64,000 nt of DNA from assembly GCA_951812925.1 (NCBI GenBank), contig OX638369.1, forward strand, positions 26,492,533-26,556,532, written 5' to 3'. The notes below the pieces were generated by a model, which did not search any database, had not been told where the DNA came from, and was given only the letters and a program-made list of their open reading frames with translations. The stretch's first letter is position 1. Each line of letters begins with the position of its first letter. A program made the position numbers and the translations under genes. Source of the stretch: Calliopum simillimum. Its lineage: Eukaryota; Arthropoda; Insecta; Diptera; Lauxaniidae. This document shows, piece after piece, positions 13,134 to 60,055 of the stretch.

Positions 13134-13977
13134 TTGGGTGTACAACTTAAAAACCGGAATTTGACGGTGGATGTCCGTACTAACAAATATCGTGAAAGCT
13201 CGAACTTTATATATATGTCATTTTGAAGGTACATTTGACAGCTGTCAAAATCAGTTAACAAAACAATTTTATCTTGTGTGCATCATTATTATTTTTCACG
13301 ATGAATAACTTCGAAAATTGGAGAAAAAGACAGCATTTGCGGCAGGTTCTGTTGGGTCATTTTTTTGCAAAGAAACCTGCTGCCAGAAGTCATTTTTGCA
13401 TCGGATCGTCACTGGGGATGAAAAATGGATCCATTACGACAACCCGAAACGCAAACATTCATATATGAAACCCGGACAACCAGGATGGTGCTCTGTAATG
13501 CTCATAGGTGACCTCTATCGAACACAATTAATACGTTTGAAGCGTGCTATCATCGAAAAACGCCCGGAAAATGCGACCAGTCACGAAGCAATAATTTTTC
13601 ATCATGACAACGCTCGGCCACATATTGCTGCCCCAGTCAAAAACTACAACGGAAAACAACGGATGGGAAATTTTGCCTCACCCACTTTATAGCCCAGACC
13701 TTGCACCATCAGACTACCATTTGTTCCGATCGATGCAGAATGCCCTATCAGGAATACGCTTCACTTAAGTTCAAGATATCGAAAATTGGATAGATTCATT
13801 TTTGGCCGCCAAGCCGGCGCAATTTTTTTTGGGATGGAATTCATAAATTGCCTGAAAGATGGGGAAATGTTTTAGCTTCCAATGGACAATACTTTGAATA
13901 AAATATATTGTAACATTTTTCCACAATAAAGCATCAAATTTCGCTAAAAAATTCCGGTTTTTAAGTTGTACACCCAA
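13134..13977 (+). mobile_element. Internally deleted mariner, copy 2, both ends intact
   Basis: Both terminal inverted repeats are present. The left end begins TTGGGTGTACAACTT at 13134 and the right end is its mirror ending ACACCCAA at 13977. Each is bordered by the TA target duplication typical of Tc1/mariner (13132-13133 and 13978-13979). The length of 844 bp against ~1.3 kb for intact mariners shows an internal deletion. It is the same sub-family as 1328-2125, in opposite orientation. By recall of family motifs it resembles the mariner group described from tephritid flies (rosa-like), but I could not test this. Confidence 0.9.
13300..13960 (+). pseudogene. Mariner transposase remnant (copy 2)
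   Basis: The start at 13302 (MNNFENWRKRQHLR) is followed by a frameshift. The frame at 13318-13692 then contains VTGDEKWIHYD (first catalytic Asp), GDLYRTQLIRLKRA and FHHDNARPHIA (second Asp). A further frameshift near 13680 moves to the frame encoding [13 protein letters not shown] with the third Asp of DD34D. All three acidic residues are therefore present, but in different frames, and the N-terminal DNA-binding domain and the segment before GDLYR are missing. It is inactive. Confidence 0.88.
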
Positions 13978-19356: not shown

Positions 19357-21940
19357 ATTGAATTGAAATTCAATTTCAATTCAATTTCAATTCAATTTCA
19401 ATTCAATTTCAATTCAATTTCAATTCAATTTCAATTCAATTTCAATTCAATTTCAATTCAATTTCAATTCAATTTCAATTCAATTTCAATTAAATTTCAA
19501 TTCAATTACAATTTTATTTCAATTCAATTTCAATTCAATTTCAATTCAATTTCAATTCAATTTCAATTCAATTTCAATTCAATTTCAATTCAATTTCAAT
19601 TCAATTTCAATTCAATTTCAATTCAATTTCAATTCAATTTCAATTCAATTTCAATTCAATTTCAATTCAATTTCAATTCAATTTCAATTCAATTTCAATT
19701 CAATTTCAATTCAATTTCAATTCAATTTCAATTCAATTTCAATTCAATTTCAATTCAATTTCAATTCAATTTCAATTCAATTTCAATTCAATTTCAATTC
19801 AATTTCAATTCAATTTCAATTCAATTTCAATTCAATTTCAGTTCAATTTCAATTCAATTTCAATTCAATTTCAATTCAATTTCAATTCAATTTCAATTCA
19901 ATTTCAATTCAATTTCAATTCAATTTCAGTTCAATTTCAATTCAATTTCAATTCAATTTCAATTCAATTTCAATTCAATTTCAATTCAATTTCAATTCAA
20001 TTTCAATTCAATTTCAATTCAACTTCAATTCAATTTCAATTCAATTTCAATTCAATTTCAATTCAACTTCCAATTCAATTTCAATTCAATTTCAATTCAA
20101 TTTCAATTCAATTTCAATTCAATTTCAATTCAATTTCAATTCAATTTCAATTCAATTTCAATTCAATTTCAATTCAATTTCAATTCAATTTCAATTCAAT
20201 TTCAATTCAATTTCAATTCAATTTCAATTCAATTTCAATTCAATTTCAATTCAATTTCAATTCAATTTCAATTCAATTTCAATTCAATTTCAATTCAATT
20301 TCAATTCAATATCAATTCAATTTCAATTCAATTTCAATTCAATTTCAATTCAATTTCAATTCAATTTCAATTCAATTTCAATTCAATTTCAATTCAATTT
20401 CAATTCAATTTCAATTCAATTTCAATTCAATTTCAATTCAATTTCAATTCAATTTCAATTCAATTTCAATTCAATTTCAATTCAATTTCAATTCAATTTC
20501 AATTCAATTTCAATTCAATTTCAATTCAATTTCAATTCAATTTCAATTCAATTTCAATTCAACTTCAATTCAATTTCAATTCAATTTCAATTCAATTTCA
20601 ATTCAACTTCAATTCAATTTCAATTCAATTTCAATTCAATTTCAATTCAATTTCAATTCAATTTCAATTCAATTTCAATTCAATTTCAATTCAATTTCAA
20701 TTCAATTTCAATTCAATTTCAATTCAATTTCAATTCAATTTCAATTCAATTTCAATTCAATTTCAATTCAATTTCAATTCAATTTCAATTCAATTTCAAT
20801 TCAATTTCAATTCAATTTCAATTCAATTTCAATTCAATTTCAATTCAATTTCAATTCAATTTCAATTCAATTTCAATTCAATTTCAATTCAATTTCAATT
20901 CAATTTCAATTCAATTTCAATTCAATTTCAATTCAATTTCAATTCAATTTCAATTCAATTTCAATTCAATTTCAATTCAATTTCAATTCAATTTCAATTC
21001 AATTTCAATTCAATTTCAATTCAATTTCAATTCAATTTCAATTCAATTTCAATTCAATTTCAATTCAATTTCAGTTCAATTTCAATTCAATTTCAATTCA
21101 ACTTCAATTCAATTTCAATTCAATTTCAATTCAATTTCAATTCAATTTCAATTCAATTTCAATTCAATTTCAATTCAATTTCAATTCAATTTCAATTCAA
21201 TTTCAATTCAATTTCAATTCAATTTCAATTCAATTTCAATTCAATTTCAATTCAATTTCAATTCAGTTTCAATTCAATTTCAATTCAATTTCAATTCAAT
21301 TTCAATTCAATTTCAATTCAATTTCAATTCAATTTCAATTCAATTTCAATTCAATTTCAATTCAATTTCAATTCAATTTCAATTCAATTTCAATTCAATT
21401 TCAATTCAATTTCAATTCAATTTCAATTCAATTTCAATTCAATTTCAATTCAATTTCAATTCAATTTCAATTCAATTTCAATTCAATTTCAATTCAATTT
21501 CAATTCAATTTCAATTCAATTTCAATTCAATTTCAATTCAATTTCAATTCAATTTCAATTCAATTTCAATTCAATTTCAATTCAATTTCAATTCAATTTC
21601 AATTCAATTTCAATTCAATTTCAATTCAATTTCAATTCAATTTCAATTCAATTTCAATTCAATTTCAATTCAATTTCAATTCAATTTCAATTCAATTTCA
21701 ATTCAATTTCAATTCAATTTCAATTCAATTTCAATTCAATTTCAATTCAATTTCAATTTAATTTCAGTTCAATTTCAATTCAATTTCAATTCAATTTCAA
21801 TTCAATTTCAATTCAATTTCAATTCAATTTCAATTCAATTTCAATTCAATTTCAATTCAATTTCAATTCAATTTCAATTCAATTTCAATTCAATTTCAAT
21901 TCAATTTCAATTCAATTTCAGTTCAATTTTACGTCAGTTC
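19357..21940 (+). repeat. 2.6-kb satellite array of the 11-mer TTCAATTCAAT
   Basis: About 235 head-to-tail copies of TTCAATTCAAT with very few variants. Isolated changes such as AACTTC (20021, 20067, 20561, 20604), CAGTTC (around 19840, 19928, 21073, 21767, 21920) and CAATATC (~20308) act as markers. The AACTTC pair recurs 540 bp later, equal to 49 units plus one base, which shows block duplication inside the array. The left edge starts with a short inverted piece (TTGAATTGAAATTCAATTTC). Because 11 is not a multiple of 3 and the unit contains no plus-strand stop, all three plus frames are open. The 887-residue frame (19297-21960) encodes only an 11-residue repeat, FNSISIQFQFN, and I do not regard it as a gene. 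Confidence 0.95.
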
Positions 21941-26999: not shown

Positions 27000-27772
27000 T
27001 ATACCCTACACCCAGGGTATATTCACTTTGTCCTTCCGTTTGTAACGCAGAGAAGGAGGCGTGGCAGATATAGAAAAGCATATATATTCTTGATCAGCGT
27101 CACCTCCTGAGTCGATATAGCCATGTCCGTCTGTCTGGCTGGGTGGCTGGCTGTGTGTGGAAATACATTTTTTGGGAACACTAAGCAAGATAATTCAATG
27201 AAATTTGGTGCACAGCCTTCGTTGTCAAAGATAACTCGGGGGATTGAAAATGAGCGAAATCGGTCAACGAACACGCCTACCGCCCATACGAAAATATATT
27301 CAAAATACAATTTTTTGAGTATTTTTCACGATAATACAACCAAAATACACACAAATACTACGAATTGTAAATGCAAGCTCTGAGCAAAAACGGGGTGAAT
27401 TCGAACAAGAGGGCGTGGCACCTCTCGTATAAGCAAAAGCTTCAAAACTCTATACTGAAGCGTTTTTTGAGATAATTGAACTAAATTTTCCTCAGACACT
27501 AAGAATTATAAATACAAGCTTTAAGCAAAAACTGGATAAAATCGAAAAAGAGGGCGTGGCGCCTCCCATATAAGCAAAAGGTTCAAAACGCTATGTTGAA
27601 AACATTTTTTGAGATAATCCAACCAAATTTCACTCAAATGCTAAGAACTATAAATTCAAACTCTGAGAAAAAACTGGGTGAATTCAGACAAGAGGGCGTG
27701 GCACTTCCCATACAAGCAAAATTTTCAAAATACTGCTGTGTAGGGTATTTAATGTTTGGCTAGGCCAAAGGT
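27000..27772 (+). mobile_element. ATACCCTACA-ended dispersed element, copy A
   Basis: It begins ATACCCTACACCCAGGGTAT and ends with TGTAGGGTATTTAATG, so the ends form a ~10-bp inverted repeat. The 5' third holds the motif ATATATTCTTGATCAGCGTC and CGATATAGCCATGTCCGTC that I recall as widespread in dipteran repeats. The 3' part is at least three tandem units of ~140 bp (CACTAAGAATTATAAAT, GAGGGCGTGGC, CATATAAGCAAAA). Open frames across it are repeat translations. Non-autonomous; transposition mechanism unknown to me. Confidence 0.75.
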
Positions 27773-29889: not shown

Positions 29890-30830
29890 TATACCCTACA
29901 CCCAGGGTATATTCACTTTGTCCTTCCGTTTGTAACGCAGAGAAGGAGGCGTGGCAGATATAGAAAAGTATATATATTCTTGATCAGCGTCACCTCCTGA
30001 GTCGATATAGCCATGTCCGTCTGTCTGGCTGGCTGGCTGGCTGGGTGGCTGGCTGGCTGGCTGTGTGTTGAAATACACTTTTTGGGAAAACTAAGCAAGA
30101 TAATTCAATGAAACTTGGTACACTGCCTTCGTCACCAAAGTTAGCTCGGGGGATTGAAAATGAGCGAAATCGGTCAACGGACACGCCTACCACCCATACA
30201 AAAAATATATTAAAAATGCAATTTTAGGAGTTTTTTTCACGGCAATGCAACCAAAATACGCATTAATATTAAAAATTGTAAGCGCAAGCTCTGAGGAAAA
30301 ACTAAGCGAATTCGGACAAGAGGGCGTGGCACCTCCCATATAAGCAAATGCTTAAAAACGCTATACTGAAAGCGTTTTTTGAAATATTCGAATCAAATTT
30401 GACTCAGACACTAAGAATCATAAATGAAAGCTCTCAACAAAAATTGGGTGAAATCGGACAAGGGGACGTGGTACCTCCCACATAAGCAAAAGTTTCAAAA
30501 TGATATACTGAAACAGTTTCTTGAGATAATCGAACCATGCTTCACTCAAATACTAAATACTATAAATGCACGCTCTAAGCTAAAACTAGACGAACTCGGT
30601 CAATAGGGCGTGGCACCTCCTATATAAGCAAAAGCTTCAAAACGCTTTACTGAAAAAGTTTGTCACTCAGACACTAAAAACTATAAATGCAAGCGCTGAA
30701 CAAAAACTGGGTGACCTCGGACAAGAGAGCGTAGCAACTCCCATATGAGCAAAATTTGAAAAATACTGCAGTGTAGGGTATTTAATGTTTGGCCAGGCCA
30801 AATTTTACACCCTTACTAGTTTTTTTCTTT
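29890..30830 (+). mobile_element. ATACCCTACA-ended dispersed element, copy B
   Basis: The same family as 27000-27772, with matching ends (ATACCCTACACCC at 29892; TGTAGGGTATTTAATG at 30772). It carries an expanded CTGG(C/G)TGG tract at 30024-30062 and about four ~140-bp tandem units (GAGGGCGTGGC, CTCCCATATAAGC). It appears to have inserted among LINE-derived sequence. Confidence 0.75.
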
Positions 30831-46066: not shown

Positions 46067-46790
46067 GCAACCAAGTGAAATGACTTTGGCGCCGAACTTG
46101 AACTGTTGAAGCGATAAAAAATTTTAACAACTATCCATAACCGTAAGCCATTGAAAATGGTGATGATGGTGATGACGACGACGATGATGTTGTTGAGGAT
46201 GCTGATGATGGAAACTGAGAAACAAAATTTGCGGTAAATTAAAACACGACCCACAAGCAACAACAACAACAGCAGCAACACTATATATGGCATAGCAATA
46301 GTTTTCCATTTTCAACACAGCGCATGCGCACACTTTAAAGCCGGCAGCAACATATTTTTTTTTTTTATTTCTTCTTCAGACATCATTGACTTTGGAAATG
46401 AGGCAGAAGCAGCAGCAGCAACAGATGCGGTTGTATTAGACCGCAGTCTAATTGGCAGCATCAACAAGCTGATAATGAAAAAAAAAAGAAGAAGCACCAG
46501 CAATATCCGTTGCTACAGCAACAAACAACATATTGCTTTCTTTTATGCCACAAACATTTTTGTTGAGTGCAGTTTTTTTCTTTTTTCGTACATGTTTATT
46601 GCCCACAAACGTCGTATTTATTTACAAATGTTATTGACCAAGTAATAACATTTTTGTTGTTGTACTTGTTGTTGCGGTTACTAATGTGCAAACTCACATA
46701 AAATGCAGCGTGAAAAGTGAAAAGCTGCGTTTTGGGATGCAAATGTATAATTGAATTGTTTGTGGCAAAAAAGATGGCTAGAAAATAATG

Positions 46791-46818
46791 AAATCGAAAG
46801 ACTTAAGCAACGAACTTG
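46791..46818 (+). repeat. Dispersed 28-bp motif, copy 6 (exact core)
   Basis: AAATCGAAA then the exact 19-nt core. Confidence 0.65.
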
Positions 46819-47859
46819 AGAAATTCCGCTATTTTAATTAATTTAATTAGGAAATTAAGCTTTAAGACTGTAGATAACTAAATAACGATGTTATAAATAC
46901 TGATTGCCATAGTCAAGTATGAACCTTTAGTTTGAACGTATGAGTATTATTGGATTTTTGTCAAATTTTCAATGAAGTATACCCCCATTACATTAAGTTT
47001 GCATGGAATTTTTTTTATGTAAACATTTCGAAGTTCTACAACAAATATTCATCAACATGAAAGCCCTTTCAGTTTTTTGTTTTTCTTCTCCTTAACAATA
47101 AATTCCTAGTAATGCAAAAATGTGGGCTTACCATCATAAATTTTCAGCAAAACAACATTTTGCACTTAAAACAGAACAACAATAAATATCATTTTGTTGT
47201 AAATCAATTTGACAAAACAATCAATAAAATTTGATTTTCAGCGCAAAGATTAAGACGCTGGAACAGACAACTGGTGTTGTTACGAAAAAAGTGTTGTTGC
47301 GGAATGCTGTTGACAACATAACAAAGATAGCAAAAGGGCCTTCGCTAAAGAACATTCATTGCCAGTGCGTAGAACTTAAAACAAAGGATATATGACTACA
47401 CAAAAAAGGTTTTAGACGTAGACAATTCAATTGTGTGTTGTGTTAAGCCAACAACAACCATTTTTTAAGACAACATTGGTACAATAAGGGCTTCCATTGC
47501 GTGTGTGGTGTTGCAATGCATACTTTGGCTCTAAGTAAACTAATAAATTGCCACCCTTTTAATTTTACATTTAGATAAGAAGTTGAAATTTATTTGTAAA
47601 AAAAAGAGAAAAAATTGTTAACATTGTTTTGTGGTAACATGACTATAACATGGTGGCCATTAATTAAACCTACAACTTTTGTAGTATGCTTAATCCTGAA
47701 TAAAATGTCAGCAATAATTGTTTTTCAACTGACATCGGAATGAAGTAATCAAGGTTTGAGTTTAAAAACTTAAAAAAAATTGATAATTTTATATTGAACT
47801 AATTAAACAGTCATTTTTGCAATTTTTCAACAACAGACAAAAGCAAGTGTTAACATGGA

Positions 47860-47948
47860 AATTGATTACATATGTTTCGGGTACTTTCACAAACATATTT
47901 ATATATTTTTCATATATAAACATGTATATAGCCTCATCAGATCAGTTT
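47860..47948 (-). ncRNA. Hammerhead ribozyme (type I), left arm
   Basis: On the minus strand the core is the canonical CTGATGA (complement of 47934-47940) and GAAAC (complement of 47874-47878). Stem I, stem III and the GTA cleavage triplet are identical to the right-arm copy. Stem II here has one C-C mismatch (GGCTA opposite TACCC), whereas the right copy is fully paired. The two copies therefore differ at N7 of the core and in stem II, both tolerated or partly tolerated positions. Confidence 0.7.
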
Positions 47949-47961
47949 TAGTTAAATCTTG

Positions 47962-48043
47962 CCAGAAACCGTACTCGAACCCGTGACTCCGGTTTTCTAA
48001 TGAAAGAGAACGCGGTGCTTAAGCGATTATGCTATAGGTCACG
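47962..48043 (-). promoter_or_regulatory. Mirror tRNA-like segment with pol III boxes
   Basis: Minus-strand B box complementary to 47971-47981 and A box complementary to 48024-48034, identical to those in the right arm. The two promoters face away from each other across the spacer. Confidence 0.7.
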
Positions 48044-48091
48044 AGTAAACTCTCTGAGCAGGATCGCCATTATGCATAAATCATAAGGCTC

Positions 48092-48167
48092 ACTAGCGCC
48101 GTCTGTTGTAGCTAGCGTAGCATGTCTCAAAACCAGAGTGTGTTACCATTTAACAATTTGGCCTTAT
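48092..48167. other. 76-nt spacer of the inverted dimer
   Basis: Unpaired sequence between the arms, relatively GC-rich (ACTAGCGCCGTCTGTTGTAG). Its mid part contains TGTAGCTAGCGTAGCATG. No similarity to other parts of the window was noticed. Confidence 0.5.
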
Positions 48168-48215
48168 GAGCCTTATGATTTATGCATAATGGCGATCCTG
48201 CTCAGAGAGTTTACT

Positions 48216-48297
48216 CGTGACCTATAGCATAATCGCTTAAGCACCGCGTTCTCTTTCATTAGAAAACCGGAGTCACGGGTTCGAGTACGGTTTCTGG
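48216..48297 (+). promoter_or_regulatory. tRNA-like segment with internal pol III A and B boxes
   Basis: The A-box-like TAGCATAATCG at 48225-48235 fits TRGCNNARYNG. The B-box-like GGTTCGAGTAC at 48278-48288 differs from GGTTCGANTCC at one fixed base. The spacing of 53 nt between box starts is within the range for tRNA-type promoters. Acceptor and T-stem pairing are poor, so this is a tRNA-derived promoter rather than a functional tRNA. The tRNA of origin cannot be told. Confidence 0.7.
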
Positions 48298-48310
48298 CAA
48301 GATTTAACTA

Positions 48311-48399
48311 AAACTGATCTGAGGAGGCTATATACATGTTTATATATGAAAAATATATAAATATGTATGTGGAAGTAGCCGAAACATATGTAATCAATT
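48311..48399 (+). ncRNA. Hammerhead ribozyme (type I), right arm
   Basis: Conserved core elements occur in order with correct geometry. Stem I strand TGAT at 48315-48318 is followed directly by CTGAGGA (48319-48325, the CUGANGA box). Stem II GGCTA (48326-48330) pairs with TAGCC (48376-48380) and extends as TATACAT/ATGTATG and an AT hairpin. GAAA follows at 48381-48384. Stem III is ACA/TGT (48384-48386 and 48389-48391) closed by a 2-nt loop. The cleavage triplet GTA ends at 48392, and stem I closes with ATCA (48393-48396) pairing to TGAT. Predicted cleavage follows A48392. Short stem III with open stem I matches the hammerheads known from Penelope-like elements and animal retrozymes. Activity is untested. 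Confidence 0.78.
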
Positions 48400-48478
48400 T
48401 CCATGTTAACACTTGCTTTCGTCTGTTGTTGAAAAATTGCAAAAATGACTGTTTAATTAGTTCAATATAAAATTATCA

Positions 48479-49205
48479 TACTTCAATTTAGAAAAAAGCG
48501 CGTTGGTACTTTTATTAGTACTATACAAGCAATAAAAAAAACAGTCAATAAACTAACTTCATAATTAAAAAAAAAATTATTAAATAATTTTTGATAAACA
48601 TCTCGTTTTAGGTATTTAAGTTTTATTAAAAAACTCGAAAGTATATTTTTATAGATACGTTTAGTTTGATGATAAAAATAAGAGTTGAGTTGAATTATTT
48701 TTAGCTGATGTCACTTATTTTTATTAAGCGGCCATTAATAAGAATTTTATTTTTCATACAGCACTAAATGTCTTTTACAATGGCAATAAAATTTACTTTC
48801 CAAGTGATATCGAAAACTTTTGTTAACTAGTTTTATTGCATACATTTCATATATATATATGCAATCGAAACAAATTTGTTTATAAAACTGTTGATTCTAA
48901 TATGCCTTAATGGAAAAAATTCGAAAGCTACAATATTAAACCTCATGCGGATATTGTTCATATTAGTAGCTAAATACAATATTATGTTGCACTCACTAAT
49001 TATTAAACTGAAAAAAGCATTAAAAATCTACTGACGCTAAATCCAAATATCAAAATTTGAAGATGTATATAATTTTAAACAACTATGTAGAAATCTATAC
49101 TTTGAAGAACAGAAATTGTTGCTCTATACCCTTAGGAATTACAGGAGAATACATACAAGGAAAGAAATTCAATAATTCCATACTTTGACAATTTATAGGG
49201 TAAAC
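48479..49205. other. No gene seen
   Basis: AT-rich non-coding sequence. TAGGAATTACAGGAGAATAC near 49133 weakly resembles the LINE tail at 31094. Confidence 0.35.
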
Positions 49206-49206
49206 C

Positions 49207-49318
49207 CTGTGGATTCGCCATCCCTAGGTGATATGGTACCCCTAGATGATATGGCACCCCTATATGATATGTGACCCCTAGATGATATGGCACCCCTAGA
49301 TGACATGGCACCCCTTCC
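49207..49318. repeat. Minisatellite ATGGCACCCCTAGATGAT
   Basis: Six tandem copies of an 18-20-bp unit with minor variation (GGTACCCC, GTGACCCC). Isolated relatives ATGGTGCCATATCTCC (49794) and GGTGCCATATCTCC (49998) lie downstream. The minus-strand frame across it (VPYHLG repeats) is not a gene. Confidence 0.85.
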
Positions 49319-50915
49319 AATTTCAATTATTGCATCTGTCGCAGCATTCAAATATGGCAAAATTGTAGTTTAGTTGCGCGAAGTAATATTCGTTTAGTTG
49401 CGGTTGCTATAATAACCTCATTCGGATTTTTTTTTAAAAGAATCGGAATGTAAACGGCTGACTTTTTTTGCACATATTTCGATTCGATACAGTTACATGG
49501 TGCAGAACAGAAGAAAATAATGTGGTGCAGCAGAAAAAAATGCAACGTGTAATGGTTTCAAAGAAGATTGCATATAAACGAAAGGTGGTTAATACTTATG
49601 ATTCTTCCGATGGAGTTTAAGAAAACATTAACGTCAAAGATTATTTTTGAAGGGTGCGTTGAATGTTAGAAGACTATGCACAAACTACTAAATCATGTGG
49701 TTACATTAAACATGTTGATCTTAAACGAAACTATGCAACAATTCAGGCAAAGAAGACTTGAAAACTTCTTAGGGTGCTAAATCATCCTTAATATGGTGCC
49801 ATATCTCCATAGTCTCAGGTGATTTGACACTTTATAGAATTTTTTTGAATTGAAAAGAAACCATGTGTATTTTCAATAATTTTCCGCTTGAGTTAAAGTA
49901 CTAGTATTTGTTTTAAATTCTACAAAAGATAAAATCGTTTTTTATTTCCATTAAAAATTTTTTTTAATTCCGTTTTAATAGATGTTCAACGAAAAAGGTG
50001 CCATATCTCCCGGGCTTACTCTAGAGTTAATATCATCATGAGCATGTACTTTTTGTCTCAAATTTTTAGCAACTATTAACCAAAAGTCACCCTAGACATT
50101 TTTAAGCGGCCATTAATTAAATCTGTCATTTTTGTGGAGCAGCAAAAGCTCAGTAATTGTGCAAATAAGTAAACGTAATAATATACATCGGAAGTGTGAT
50201 ATTGGAGTCAAAGTTTACAAATAAATTCTGAAAAATATGCTTAAAATTACTTAGTAGCATTTTTATGGCTTGTTTTGCTTACCAATTGACGAAGTAAACT
50301 AAAAACTTATAAACTTTAATATTTTCCAGTTGTTATGTCTTCTCTATGGCTAAATGTGAGTTTCTTGCTTACTTTAGTTCGAAGAATTTGACGAAATCAT
50401 GATCCGTAAGTAGTACTAGTGATAACATACTTGCACAGAAATTTGATCATGTGTTCCATGAGCATTTGGCGGATTATGCATTCTGCTTCACAGATTCCAA
50501 TGAGTGAAATGATGAAATTATGTCATCAGATTAATCACTTAATGTTTCCCTGCGAGAATAAAGCATAGCGTATGCTAACATATTCGGGCAGACAAATTAT
50601 GGTCCTTGAAAAGTATTCTTTTCAGCAAATTAGTAATCATCTGTTAATAGGTTCTCGTTTTTGTTTAAACGATTTTGTAGGAATTTGTCACCTGTCATAA
50701 TTTTAAAGTATGCATGTTTTCTAGTCAAACAACTGCTAATTAACATCATTGTCACATTTATAAATAAAGAAAAAATAAATTATTAACAACATCTGTTAAT
50801 TGAAATTTGATGAATACTTAAATGAAATGCTTCCGTAAGCTTTAGTTTAATTTTCATAATTCATAATTTCTTATGCAAATCCGTAACTGATACTTTGCAT
50901 TAAAATTTAACAAAA

Positions 50916-52551: not shown

Positions 52552-52564
52552 ATAAAAGTTTATT
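52552..52564 (+). repeat. Target-site duplication, left copy
   Basis: ATAAAAGTTTATT, repeated exactly at 53515-53527. Because the host satellite itself contains this phrase once per unit, the duplication is inferred from both flanks ending on the same phrase. Confidence 0.7.
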
Positions 52565-52605
52565 AGTGAAAAATGCTGAGCTACAGCCGTACGAATAAAA
52601 ACAAA
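52565..52605 (+). repeat. 41-bp inverted terminal piece, left
   Basis: Exactly complementary to 53440-53480 (GTACGGCTGTAGCTCAGC and flanking A/T on the right copy). Confidence 0.9.
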
Positions 52606-53244
52606 AATAATAAAAAACGAGTAAGAGACATACTCACTTGGAACGATTTTCCACAAAAAACAATAAGCCTATTAATTAAAGAAGCCACCAACAAACAGAA
52701 AACTGCAACAGCAAAAAATACGGAACCTAAAATCTACAAAAGTGTTACATATGTTCAGGGTTTTACCGAAAAATTAAATAAAACAGACATTTATGACAAA
52801 AACAAATATTGTCTTGCACCAAAATCATATAATACACTTAAGAGTATTTACACAAACACAAAGAGTAAGATACATGACATGGACAAATCTAATCTGGTGT
52901 ACCAAATACCATGTAATGGAGACGGAACCAACGTATGCGGACAAGTATATGTTGGCACAACAAAATCAAAATTAAAAGCAAGAATATCTTCACACAAATC
53001 AGACTTAAAATCAAAAACTGAGAACAAAACCGCGCTTGCACAACATTGCATAAAAGAGAAACATACACCTGACTTCGAAAACACAAAAATTTTACAACAA
53101 GAACAAAATTACATGAGACGATACACAATAGAAATGCTACACATTATCAATACACCGACAAACAAACGACTTAACTTCAAGACAGACACCGACGGTTGCG
53201 CGCATATTTATAAACTTCTTGTTAGACATAAAATCAGTCGATAG
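52573..53244 (+). CDS. Penelope-like GIY-YIG endonuclease, C-terminal fragment
   Basis: An open frame of 223 residues. Residues 1-13 come from the inverted terminal-repeat piece, so this start is not the native one. Residues ~20-105 resemble the linker between reverse transcriptase and endonuclease (YVQGFTEKLNK at 60-70; SYNTLKSIY at 85-93). The GIY-YIG domain spans ~108-195: VYQIPC at 109-114 and VYVG at 125-128 are the two signature strands, Arg137 in KARISSHK is the expected catalytic arginine, and Glu187 in RRYTIEMLHI is the metal-binding glutamate. Cys114, Cys122, His158 and His164 match the CCHH pattern that Penelope endonucleases carry. In the full element the enzyme nicks DNA to prime reverse transcription. 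The fragment is intact in frame but lacks the polymerase, so it is a relic or at most a stand-alone nuclease. Confidence 0.85.
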   Translation: MLSYSRTNKNKNNKKRVRDILTWNDFPQKTISLLIKEATNKQKTATAKNTEPKIYKSVTYVQGFTEKLNKTDIYDKNKYCLAPKSYNTLKSIYTNTKSKIHDMDKSNLVYQIPCNGDGTNVCGQVYVGTTKSKLKARISSHKSDLKSKTENKTALAQHCIKEKHTPDFENTKILQQEQNYMRRYTIEMLHIINTPTNKRLNFKTDTDGCAHIYKLLVRHKISR

Positions 53245-53367
53245 CTAGACAACGGACGAAAGACATTGCTTGCACGACAAGAGTTATGAAAAATTGTTAA
53301 AAGTATGTAAAATTATTATTTGTTTTTTATATTGTTAAGAAAATTCTAAAGTTATCTGTTTTTCTTC

Positions 53368-53426
53368 GTAGATTTTTCCTGATGATGGCTTAAAAATTAA
53401 GCCGAAATATTGAAAATAAAAATACA
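53368..53426 (+). ncRNA. Degenerate hammerhead-like motif of the Penelope terminal repeat
   Basis: CTGATGA at 53379-53385, a strong stem II GGCTTAA/TTAAGCC (53387-53393 and 53397-53403, AAA loop) and GAAA at 53404-53407 form the hammerhead core. Defects are an extra T between CTGATGA and stem II, T instead of C after GAAA, a mismatched stem III and a bulged AT-only stem I. Hammerheads are known in Penelope terminal repeats, and this looks like a decayed one. Confidence 0.55.
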
Positions 53427-53439
53427 TAAAAACATTTCT

Positions 53440-53480
53440 TTTGTTTTTATTCGTACGGCTGTAGCTCAGCATTTTTCACT
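53440..53480 (-). repeat. 41-bp inverted terminal piece, right
   Basis: Exact inverted match to 52565-52605. It lies just downstream of the hammerhead-like core, so it belongs to the element's terminal repeat. Confidence 0.9.
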
Positions 53481-53514
53481 AAATGTAACATAAAGAAGCC
53501 GATTACAACAATAC

Positions 53515-55439: not shown

Positions 55440-56155
55440 ATATCGTACTTTCCATTTAGAGGCGTGTAACTCCTACTAAGAGCAAACAGTTTTTGATATC
55501 TTTCAATACCAAAATTCATAAAAATCAATCGTGCTATATAGTGCTTACTCTATATCTACACCAAATTTCATAAAAATAGTATGCAGTATTTTTGCTGTGA
55601 GAGCGGTTTTTCCATTAAGGGGCGTGGCACTGCCCACTGAAAACATAATGGTCATGTTATCGTTCCTAAGCGCCAATCCTATCTCCATACCAAATTTTGT
55701 TGAAACCGATGCAGCGGTTTAGCCGTGAGAGGGTTTTTTCCATTTAGGGGCGTGGCACAGCCCACTGAAAAACATAATGCTCATATTATCATTCCTTAGT
55801 GCTAACCCTACCTCCATACCAAATTTCGTTAAAATCGATGTAGCGGCTTAGCCGTAGGAGCATTTTTTCCATTTAGGGGCGTGGCACCGCCCACTGAAAA
55901 ACATAATAGTCATATTATCGTTCCTTAGTGCCAACCCTATCTCCATACCAAATTTCGTTAAAATCGATGCAGCGGTTTAGCAGTGAGAGCGTTTTTTCCA
56001 TTAAGGGGCGTGGCACCGCCCACTTAAAAAAAATTAGTCCTATGCATTGCTCCTCCTCACAACCTTTCCAACAAAAAAAAAATCGAGAAAATCGGTTGAG
56101 ATTTAGGTATAGAAACAGGGACTGAACCGATTTCGTTTGCCTATTTATATATAGA
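55440..56155 (+). repeat. ~128-bp tandem repeat (GGGGCGTGGCACCGCCC family)
   Basis: The GGGCGTGGCAC landmarks fall at about 55620, 55747, 55877 and 56006 (period ~128 bp), with a diverged first unit at about 55460. Each unit also holds CCATACCAAATTTCGTTAAA, TCGATGCAGCGGTTTAGC and AACATAATGGTCAT-like phrases. The 3' end, GACTGAACCGATTTCGTTTG then TATATATAG, looks like an element terminus. It is probably the tandem-repeat part of a dispersed non-autonomous element. Overlapping open frames on both strands are by-products. Confidence 0.8.
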
Positions 56156-58868: not shown

Positions 58869-59645
58869 AACTAACCTAACCTAACCTAACCTAACCTAAC
58901 CTAACCTAACCTAACCTAACCTAACCTAACCTAACCTAACCTAACCTAACCTAACCTAACCTAACCTAACCTAACCTAACCTAACCTAACCTAACCTAAC
59001 CTAACCTAACCTAACCTAACCTAACCTAACCTAACCTAACCTAACCTAACCTAACCTAACCTAACCTAACCTAACCTAACCTAACCTAACCTAACCTAAC
59101 CTAACCTAACCTAACCTAACCTAACCTAACCTAACCTAACCTAACCTAACCTAACCTAACCTAACCTAACCTAACCTAACCTAACCTAACCTAACCTAAC
59201 CTAACCTAACCTAACCTAACCTAACCTAACCTAACCTAACCTAACCTAACCTAACCTAACCTAACCTAACCTAACCTAACCTAACCTAACCTAACCTAAC
59301 CTAACCTAACCTAACCTAACCTAACCTAACCTAACCTAACCTAACCTAACCTAACCTAACCTAACCTAACCTAACCTAACCTAACCTAACCTAACCTAAC
59401 CTAACCTAACCTAACCTAACCTAACCTAACCTAACCTAACCTAACCTAACCTAACCTAACCTAACCTAACCTAACCTAACCTAACCTAACCTAACCTAAC
59501 CTAACCTAACCTAACCTAACCTAACCTAACCTAACCTAACCTAACCTAACCTAACCTAACCTAACCTAACCTAACCTAACCTAACCTAACCTAACCTAAC
59601 CTAACCTAACCTAACCTAACCTAACCTAACCTAACCTAACCTAAC
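58869..59645 (-). repeat. (TTAGG)n array, ~155 perfect copies
   Basis: About 777 bp of uninterrupted CCTAA on the plus strand, that is TTAGG on the minus strand. TTAGG is the ancestral insect telomere repeat, but flies have lost it as a telomere sequence, so here it is an internal satellite. I see no substitution in the whole run. Confidence 0.97.
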
Positions 59646-60055
59646 CTTACTTACTTACCTTACTTTACTTTACCTTACTTTTCCTTACTTTTCCTTGCTT
59701 TACCTTTCCACCTTACTTAACCTTACTTTACCTCACTTTACCATTTTTTACCTTATTTCAACTTACTTTACCTTACTTTATTTTACTTAACTTACCGCAC
59801 CTTGCCTTATTTAACCTATTGTTTCAACTTACTTAACCTTGCTTTATCTTATTTCAACTTACTTTACCTTAATTTACCTCTCTTTACCTTACGTTACCAT
59901 ACTTTACCTCACTTTACCTAACTTGACCTTACTTTGCCTTACCATACCTTACTTTACCTTGCATTGCCTTACTTTACCTTACTTTATCTTACTTTACCTT
60001 ACTTTGCCTTACTTTACTTGCATTACCTTACTTTACCTGGCCTTACTTAACCTAA
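59646..60055. repeat. Degenerate CTTTACCTTA repeat
   Basis: About 40 copies of a 10-bp unit ACTTTACCTT with frequent variants, directly abutting the TTAGG array. It shares the CCTTA/CCTAA theme, so one array may have arisen from the other. Confidence 0.85.

Follow-up and report, generated by a model that had tools for sequence, protein, structure and literature searches.

A candidate hammerhead-bearing retroelement with A and B boxes, inserted head to head in the genome of the fly Calliopum simillimum

The inverted pair in the window

In the window, i.e. the whole stretch of 64,000 nucleotides analyzed here, two arms of 312 nt (47781-48092 on the minus strand and 48167-48478 on the plus strand) lie 74 nt apart and are 98% complementary, with five mismatches at unit positions 157, 201, 206, 212 and 254, in agreement with the initial annotation, which had described two near-complementary arms with approximately five mismatches. 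The borders given there, 47781 to 48478, were too narrow: as judged from the copies elsewhere in the genome, the plus copy ends at 48566 and both copies enter the presumed spacer, such that the actual pair consists of a minus copy at 47781-48109 and a plus copy at 48106-48566, joined head to head over 4 nt. The genome copies also rule out the 312-nt arms as the whole element, given that the unit repeated in tandem is 574 nt long (hereafter M; reference copy L029:2043-2616, minus strand). The features of the locus are as follows.

47781..48109, minus strand: left copy, M246-574, 98.8% identity to M, with its outward 3' end at 47781
48106..48566, plus strand: right copy, M181-574 (93.4%, 21 gap positions) followed by M1-85 (95.5%)
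48106..48109: head-to-head junction, a 4-nt overlap of the two copies
48225..48236, plus strand, in the right copy, and 48034 down to 48023 in the left copy: A-box-like TAGCATAATCGC, placed in the left copy by the arm alignment
48278..48288, plus strand, in the right copy, and 47981 down to 47971 in the left copy: B-box-like GGTTCGAGTAC, placed in the left copy by the arm alignment
48315..48396, plus strand: predicted type I hammerhead of the right arm (strict pattern, constrained fold)
47863..47944, minus strand: predicted type I hammerhead of the left arm, with CUGAUGA read downwards from 47940 and the predicted cut following position 47867
47770..47779: left-hand repeat of the putative target duplication, TTAAAAAAAA, weak at this locus because it is A-rich
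48565..48574: right-hand repeat of the putative target duplication, weak for the same reason

In the right copy, M1-85 represents an optional 3' extension, and approximately 20 nt of M are missing near 48160. Positions 46137-50137 of the window, which itself lies on contig C2, recur on contig C6 (locus L010) with complete identity over 4001 nt, reflecting either a recent segmental duplication or an assembly duplication.

The pattern search and the arm alignment bear out the claim that each arm carries an A box followed by a B box, 53 nt apart; the A+B pair occurs once per strand in the window and in none of 500 shuffles, under patterns that, like the strict hammerhead pattern used below, were written after the sequence had been seen. 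Neither the Rfam tRNA model nor ARAGORN (bacterial setting) called a tRNA on the element.

In the right arm, the predicted hammerhead comprises stem I (48315-48318/48393-48396, 4 bp, directly abutting the core), CUGAGGA at 48319-48325, a perfect stem II (48326-48330/48376-48380), GAAA at 48381-48384, a short stem III (C48385-G48390) with a palindromic AUAU loop, and GUA, with predicted cleavage after A48392. The short stem III and its palindromic loop suggest that the hammerhead would work best as a dimer. The strict pattern matched the right arm only; 500 dinucleotide-shuffled versions of the window contained it 3 times (0.006 per shuffle). The left arm, with a C.C mismatch in stem II, fails the strict pattern and passes a lenient one (0.18 chance matches per shuffle, 150 shuffles); thus, the full hammerhead core claimed for each arm holds by the strict pattern in the right arm and by the lenient pattern only in the left arm. 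When the fold was constrained to the hammerhead, the predicted energy was −20.4 kcal/mol vs. −22.6 kcal/mol for the free fold in the right arm, and −10.4 vs. −15.0 kcal/mol in the left arm. In the Rfam check proposed in the initial annotation, nothing in the window reached the gathering score, and neither a hammerhead nor a tRNA was reported at E ≤ 5 over 1301 nt or at E ≤ 10 over two pieces of the right arm; the absence of a hammerhead match is one of the outcomes named there as contrary evidence, and it was obtained in part.

Hammerheads across copies and families

Among 45 near-full copies of the family to which the window pair belongs (family A), 43 have CUGAUGA and a perfect stem II, and only the two arms of the window depart from this; the set excludes 15 pieces that were partial or diverged, one of which, in L015, starts inside the core and carries a stem II change. 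The CUGAGGA and the stem II mismatch reported initially are thus present but private to the window locus. Minority bases in the 45 young copies amount to 0.17% at the 13 core positions, compared with 0.44% in loop II and 0.24% elsewhere, the copies being too alike for selection on the core to be visible. Damaged or lost hammerheads were identified in both window arms, in L074 (stem III loop), in L023:606-700 (3-nt loss in stem II) and in L077 (deleted). The last of these, an old relative at L077:604-1066 (79-86%), retains most of the 574-nt unit without the hammerhead and is located just downstream of a Penelope 3' end; the possibility, raised by this locus, that the element is part of a Penelope pLTR was ruled out by three other copies of that Penelope, which lack the element.

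A second family, B, was met by sequence similarity (in L023; 1046 first-look candidates) and not by motif. In five regions, all 9 family-B hammerheads that lie downstream of a B box have an intact core and a full stem II. Compared with family A, pair I-2 is G-C instead of A-U and pair I-4 is an A.A mismatch (9/9), with a further stem I mismatch in one of the 9; the A box is TGGCCTAAGTGG in 8/9 and the B box is GGTTCGATTCT in 9/9. Family C, a 543-nt tandem in L046 first picked up by a hammerhead-shaped scan, differs from family A by changes on both sides of pairs I-2, I-3, II-2 and II-5, with the core unchanged, and has a tRNA-like head as read from the sequence, where ARAGORN made no call. In Rfam, the two L046 copies scored 21.5 bits with Hammerhead_1 (E = 0.027) and 24.2 bits with Hammerhead_3 (E = 0.018), both below the cut-off; the Hammerhead_1 gathering cut-off of 34 bits was reached neither in the window, where no match was obtained, nor in family C. 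A search of the genome with RF00163 yielded no match among the 73 scored of 75,100 candidates, and the controls were silent too. In all three families, the fold constrained to the hammerhead was predicted to be less stable than the free fold (−20.4 vs. −23.1 kcal/mol in A, −22.4 vs. −25.6 in B and −5.0 vs. −7.7 in C), which, like the damaged copies, speaks against the ribozyme. Families A and C have only short sequence matches in common, too little to support shared ancestry of their hammerheads. As judged from the sequence pattern and the paired stem changes, the motif carried by the element unit has the form of a type I hammerhead.

Genome copies, insertion structure and transcription

When the 311-nt unit was searched against the source genome (690 Mb, 334 contigs), as suggested in the initial annotation, at least 44 matches were found (40 of 1387 first-look candidates scored), among them other copies with the same core, inverted as well as in tandem. 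Around matches outside the window, 26 regions were fetched; L010 was omitted because it is identical to the window, and the remaining 25 together with the window make up the 26 loci analyzed, i.e. those best matching the window. The loci are dispersed over C1-C6, with many near-identical copies, and tandems contain up to 4 units. In M, the A box is located at M321, the B box at M374 and the hammerhead from M411, with the predicted cut after M488; the longest stop-to-stop frame inside the unit is 59 aa, and frames entering from the flank reach 82 and 75 aa. The genome copies support the original reading of a mobile, protein-free retroelement with A and B boxes and a type I hammerhead, arranged head to head. 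In the description as a head-to-head dimer, the inverted orientation stands, whereas the real tandem unit is the 574-nt M and the pair appears to be one integration event. Outside this genome, pattern scans of IMG/VR and GTDB species genomes and similarity searches of phages and plasmids revealed no relatives, the single match of the scans (L001) being an ordinary tRNA cluster.

Head-to-head pairs were observed at 14 of the 26 loci, with differing junctions: in most, the copies overlap by 1-4 nt or are separated by 3-9 nt. In L022, the overlap extends to 28 nt and falls on an inverted repeat within M, and in L011, approximately 200 nt of other sequence separate the arms. The 3' ends of most copies fall at approximately M574-M6 or M80-91 (two alternative internal sites), the 5' ends are variable, and partial tandems occur. 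Among the loci mapped onto M, no insertion end coincides with the predicted hammerhead cut (M488/489) or lies immediately 5' of the A box. Target duplications of at least 9 nt were found at 14 of 25 loci (L016 was left out of this test, its left end lying outside the piece) compared with 2.5% of 600 mispaired flanks and, where seen, are 9-16 nt long. By class, duplications of at least 9 nt are present at 12/13 head-to-head loci (at least 12 nt in 10/13) and are mostly absent among the 12 non-inverted loci (2/12). Given the 12 of 13, most head-to-head pairs look like single events inside one target duplication. Two traits of the element, inverted copies within one target duplication and two alternative internal 3' ends, are of the Penelope type.

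When neighbor pairs were counted, family A (42 places) showed 7 head-to-head and 8 direct pairs, one of the 7 being counted twice because the 42 places include the window pair and its C6 duplicate; family B (47 places) showed 8 and 3, and Penelope ORFs (150 places) 10 and 3, respectively. No tail-to-tail neighbor pairs were found in family A, family B or the Penelope ORFs. These counts omit two short matches of the 311-nt-unit search and three of the family-B search.

The presence of A and B boxes in three families argues for a pol III promoter. Among the 12 non-inverted loci, 8 start at M174-186, approximately 135-147 nt upstream of the A box, and the arrangement typical of tRNA-derived SINEs, with the A box near the 5' end of full-length copies, was not observed; a weaker A-box-like match is present at M188. 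Conceivably, the RNA that is retrotransposed has its start elsewhere, or reverse transcription comes to a halt at these positions. The sense strand of M contains TTTT at positions 175 and 241 only, vs. 17 AAAA. TTTT is absent from the right arm but also from 157 of 2000 shuffles, and it occurs once in the left arm; its absence is thus no proof of pol III use and lends it weak support.

Mobilization and alternative explanations

A Penelope-type ORF piece is located at 52570-53244 of the window, with relatives named in the tephritid genera Rhagoletis and Eurosta among 25 matches, most of them unnamed, which by itself would point to a tephritid or related fly. The Penelope piece as a whole (52563-53482) carries at its 5' side a 44-bp exact inverted copy of its own 3' end. 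At 53379, it contains a hammerhead-like motif, offset by one nucleotide, that differs from the hammerhead of the element and whose stem sequence differs in both strands between the Penelope families of this genome.

The search for a helper covered 30 Penelope loci (the best-matching ones, 75-100% identity), 14 more 3' flanks and 3 more, and strong matches were confined to pieces or insertions of the elements themselves. The remaining Penelope matches are weak, AT-rich and 13-30 nt long (E of 0.016 or more for the family-A unit), and 22 nt of the M55-76 tail occur in 3 of the 30 loci, within or near Penelope coding sequence. An RT or GIY-YIG ORF was absent from the frames of the unit, as was convincing 3' sequence shared with the Penelope regions above.

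Penelope elements have inverted pLTRs, an optional tail, partial tandems and target duplications, according to the available text of PMC3846280. For the Anolis Penelope protein, the available text of PMC11167929 describes cutting and extension of both strands, with starts at two adjacent internal RNA sites, and hammerhead mutants without effect on insertion in vitro. In the portion of PMC7229834 at hand, Penelope elements are proposed as retrozyme helpers on the grounds of common hammerheads and tandem structure.

We consider it probable that the window pair represents one insertion of a non-autonomous, protein-free retroelement, of non-LTR retrozyme or SINE-like type, likely moved by Penelope-like enzymes; the latter is suggested by structures that match the published Penelope signature and by the same pairing of the Penelope ORFs. 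Under this scenario, element RNA would be transcribed from multi-unit copies, probably from a pol III promoter, and a Penelope-like RT-endonuclease would use it in trans. The enzyme would cut both strands at an AT-rich site, and cDNA synthesis would begin at either of two internal positions of the RNA; with both DNA ends priming, two cDNAs would grow towards each other and often be joined over a few matching bases, so that a single target duplication encloses two 3' ends that point outwards. At the window locus, M246-574 on the minus strand would in this way have met M181-574-85 on the plus strand. The hammerhead, in turn, would cleave multi-unit RNA and release 574-nt pieces suitable for circularization.

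An ordinary tRNA-derived SINE moved by a LINE, with pairs arising from twin priming and the hammerhead as a passenger, appears to be a rather unlikely alternative. Target duplications of 9-16 nt and 5' truncation are also compatible with target-primed reverse transcription by a LINE, the genome contains LINEs with long open frames, and no Penelope 3' end examined has convincing sequence in common with the element. However, LINE twin priming yields two non-overlapping parts of one RNA, whereas both arms here have a 3' end and overlap in M (M246-574 and M181-574 in the window). When neighbor pairs within 6 kb were counted for 150 LINE endonuclease places, 2 were found (one direct, one head-to-head) against 13 at the 150 Penelope places, a control that is soft because the N-terminal endonuclease domain is missing from 5'-truncated LINE copies. 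Two internal 3' ends and partial tandems are, furthermore, described for Penelope in the available text of PMC3846280 and PMC11167929.

We regard as distinctly unlikely the possibility that the inverted pair is a hairpin-RNA locus feeding endo-siRNAs: read-through RNA of 312-nt arms with 98% complementarity would form a long duplex, but frequent, scattered head-to-head pairs with differing junctions point to a by-product of integration. A chance hammerhead match without function in the element would account for the silence of Rfam on the window, the deviation of the two window copies from the family, the lower stability of the constrained fold and the old copy that lacks the motif. Nevertheless, we find this very improbable given that the strict pattern is expected 0.006 times per window, that two other families have the same core and GAAACAUAUGU motif together with paired changes in the stems, and that all 9 hammerheads of family B, a family found by similarity, are core-intact. 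A satellite or foldback DNA repeat amplified at the DNA level, with a relic ribozyme, is hardly credible in spite of the long inverted arms, the 574-nt tandems and the exact 4-kb duplicate on another contig, because the loci are spread over C1-C6 and differ in their target duplications and 5' ends, while the same 3' ends recur.

Beyond the single insertion, we lean slightly towards a class of small retroelements in a fly, with at least three families in this one genome, that combine a pol III-type A/B-box promoter with a hammerhead and would be copied by Penelope-like enzymes priming at both sides of a break.

The schistosome SMalpha and Sjalpha repeats have a pol III promoter. They resemble the fly element as SINE-like repeats with a type I hammerhead (available text of PMC8490949) and are set apart from it, on the basis of the descriptions, by the fly host and by an insertion structure that here points to Penelope-type integration. 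Animal non-LTR retrozymes, as described in the accessible portion of PMC7229834, likewise are protein-free tandems with type I hammerheads, low GC and target duplications exceeding the 4 bp seen in plant retrozymes, and the fly element's short stem III, capped by a palindromic tetraloop, is similar to the axolotl retrozyme form given there. Unlike these retrozymes, the fly element has A and B boxes and frequent head-to-head pairs ('polymerase III' and 'inverted' are missing from that portion of the text), and a long AT-rich hairpin extends stem II of families A and B past a one-sided bulge.

With Penelope elements, as presented in the available text of PMC3846280 and PMC11167929, the element shares a hammerhead, partial tandems, inverted terminal copies, an optional 3' tail, internal initiation and target duplications; it differs in the A and B boxes and in the lack of an ORF over 82 aa and of convincing common 3' sequence. 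Helenus/TRIMp3 elements are similarly short, with tRNA-like sequence inside repeated ends, but have a PBS, a PPT and 4-bp target duplications in animals (available text of PMC10886601); the target duplications of 9-16 nt, where seen, and the variable 5' ends of the fly element are at odds with Helenus/TRIM membership.

In the open-access literature on hammerheads, SINEs, retrozymes and Penelope in insects and Diptera, as far as its available text extends, no description of such a fly element was found, although the accessible part of PMC7229834 mentions retrozyme-like type I hammerhead repeats in insects in general terms. If true, the Penelope-type scheme would be to Penelope what the LINE-SINE partnership is to LINEs, and would explain how retrozymes are mobilized; as to which enzyme moves animal retrozymes, Penelope is named as a strong candidate in that same portion of PMC7229834. 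Dozens of near-identical copies with a Penelope-like signature, together with Penelope elements that have long frames, make the helper question testable in one genome whose insertions are recent. Long head-to-head inverted repeats, moreover, can arise in what is apparently a single integration step, which matters for the reading of dsRNA sources and of genome assemblies.

Several other repeats and remnants were observed in the window. At 58871-59647, inside a long contig, CTAAC is repeated in 155 perfect copies; this corresponds to (TTAGG)n, the common insect telomere repeat, which, to our knowledge, flies lack. A mariner-like transposase remnant without a Pfam match is located at 13309-13692 and contains the motif HHDNARPH, which we take to be a mark of mariner-like transposases. 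The 11-mer AATTCAATTTC occurs approximately 233 times at 19367-21929, a stretch that is open in three frames, and tandem repeats of 142 bp and 129 bp with the common core GGGCGTGGCAC are found at 27322-27730, 30286-30661 and 55539-56030.
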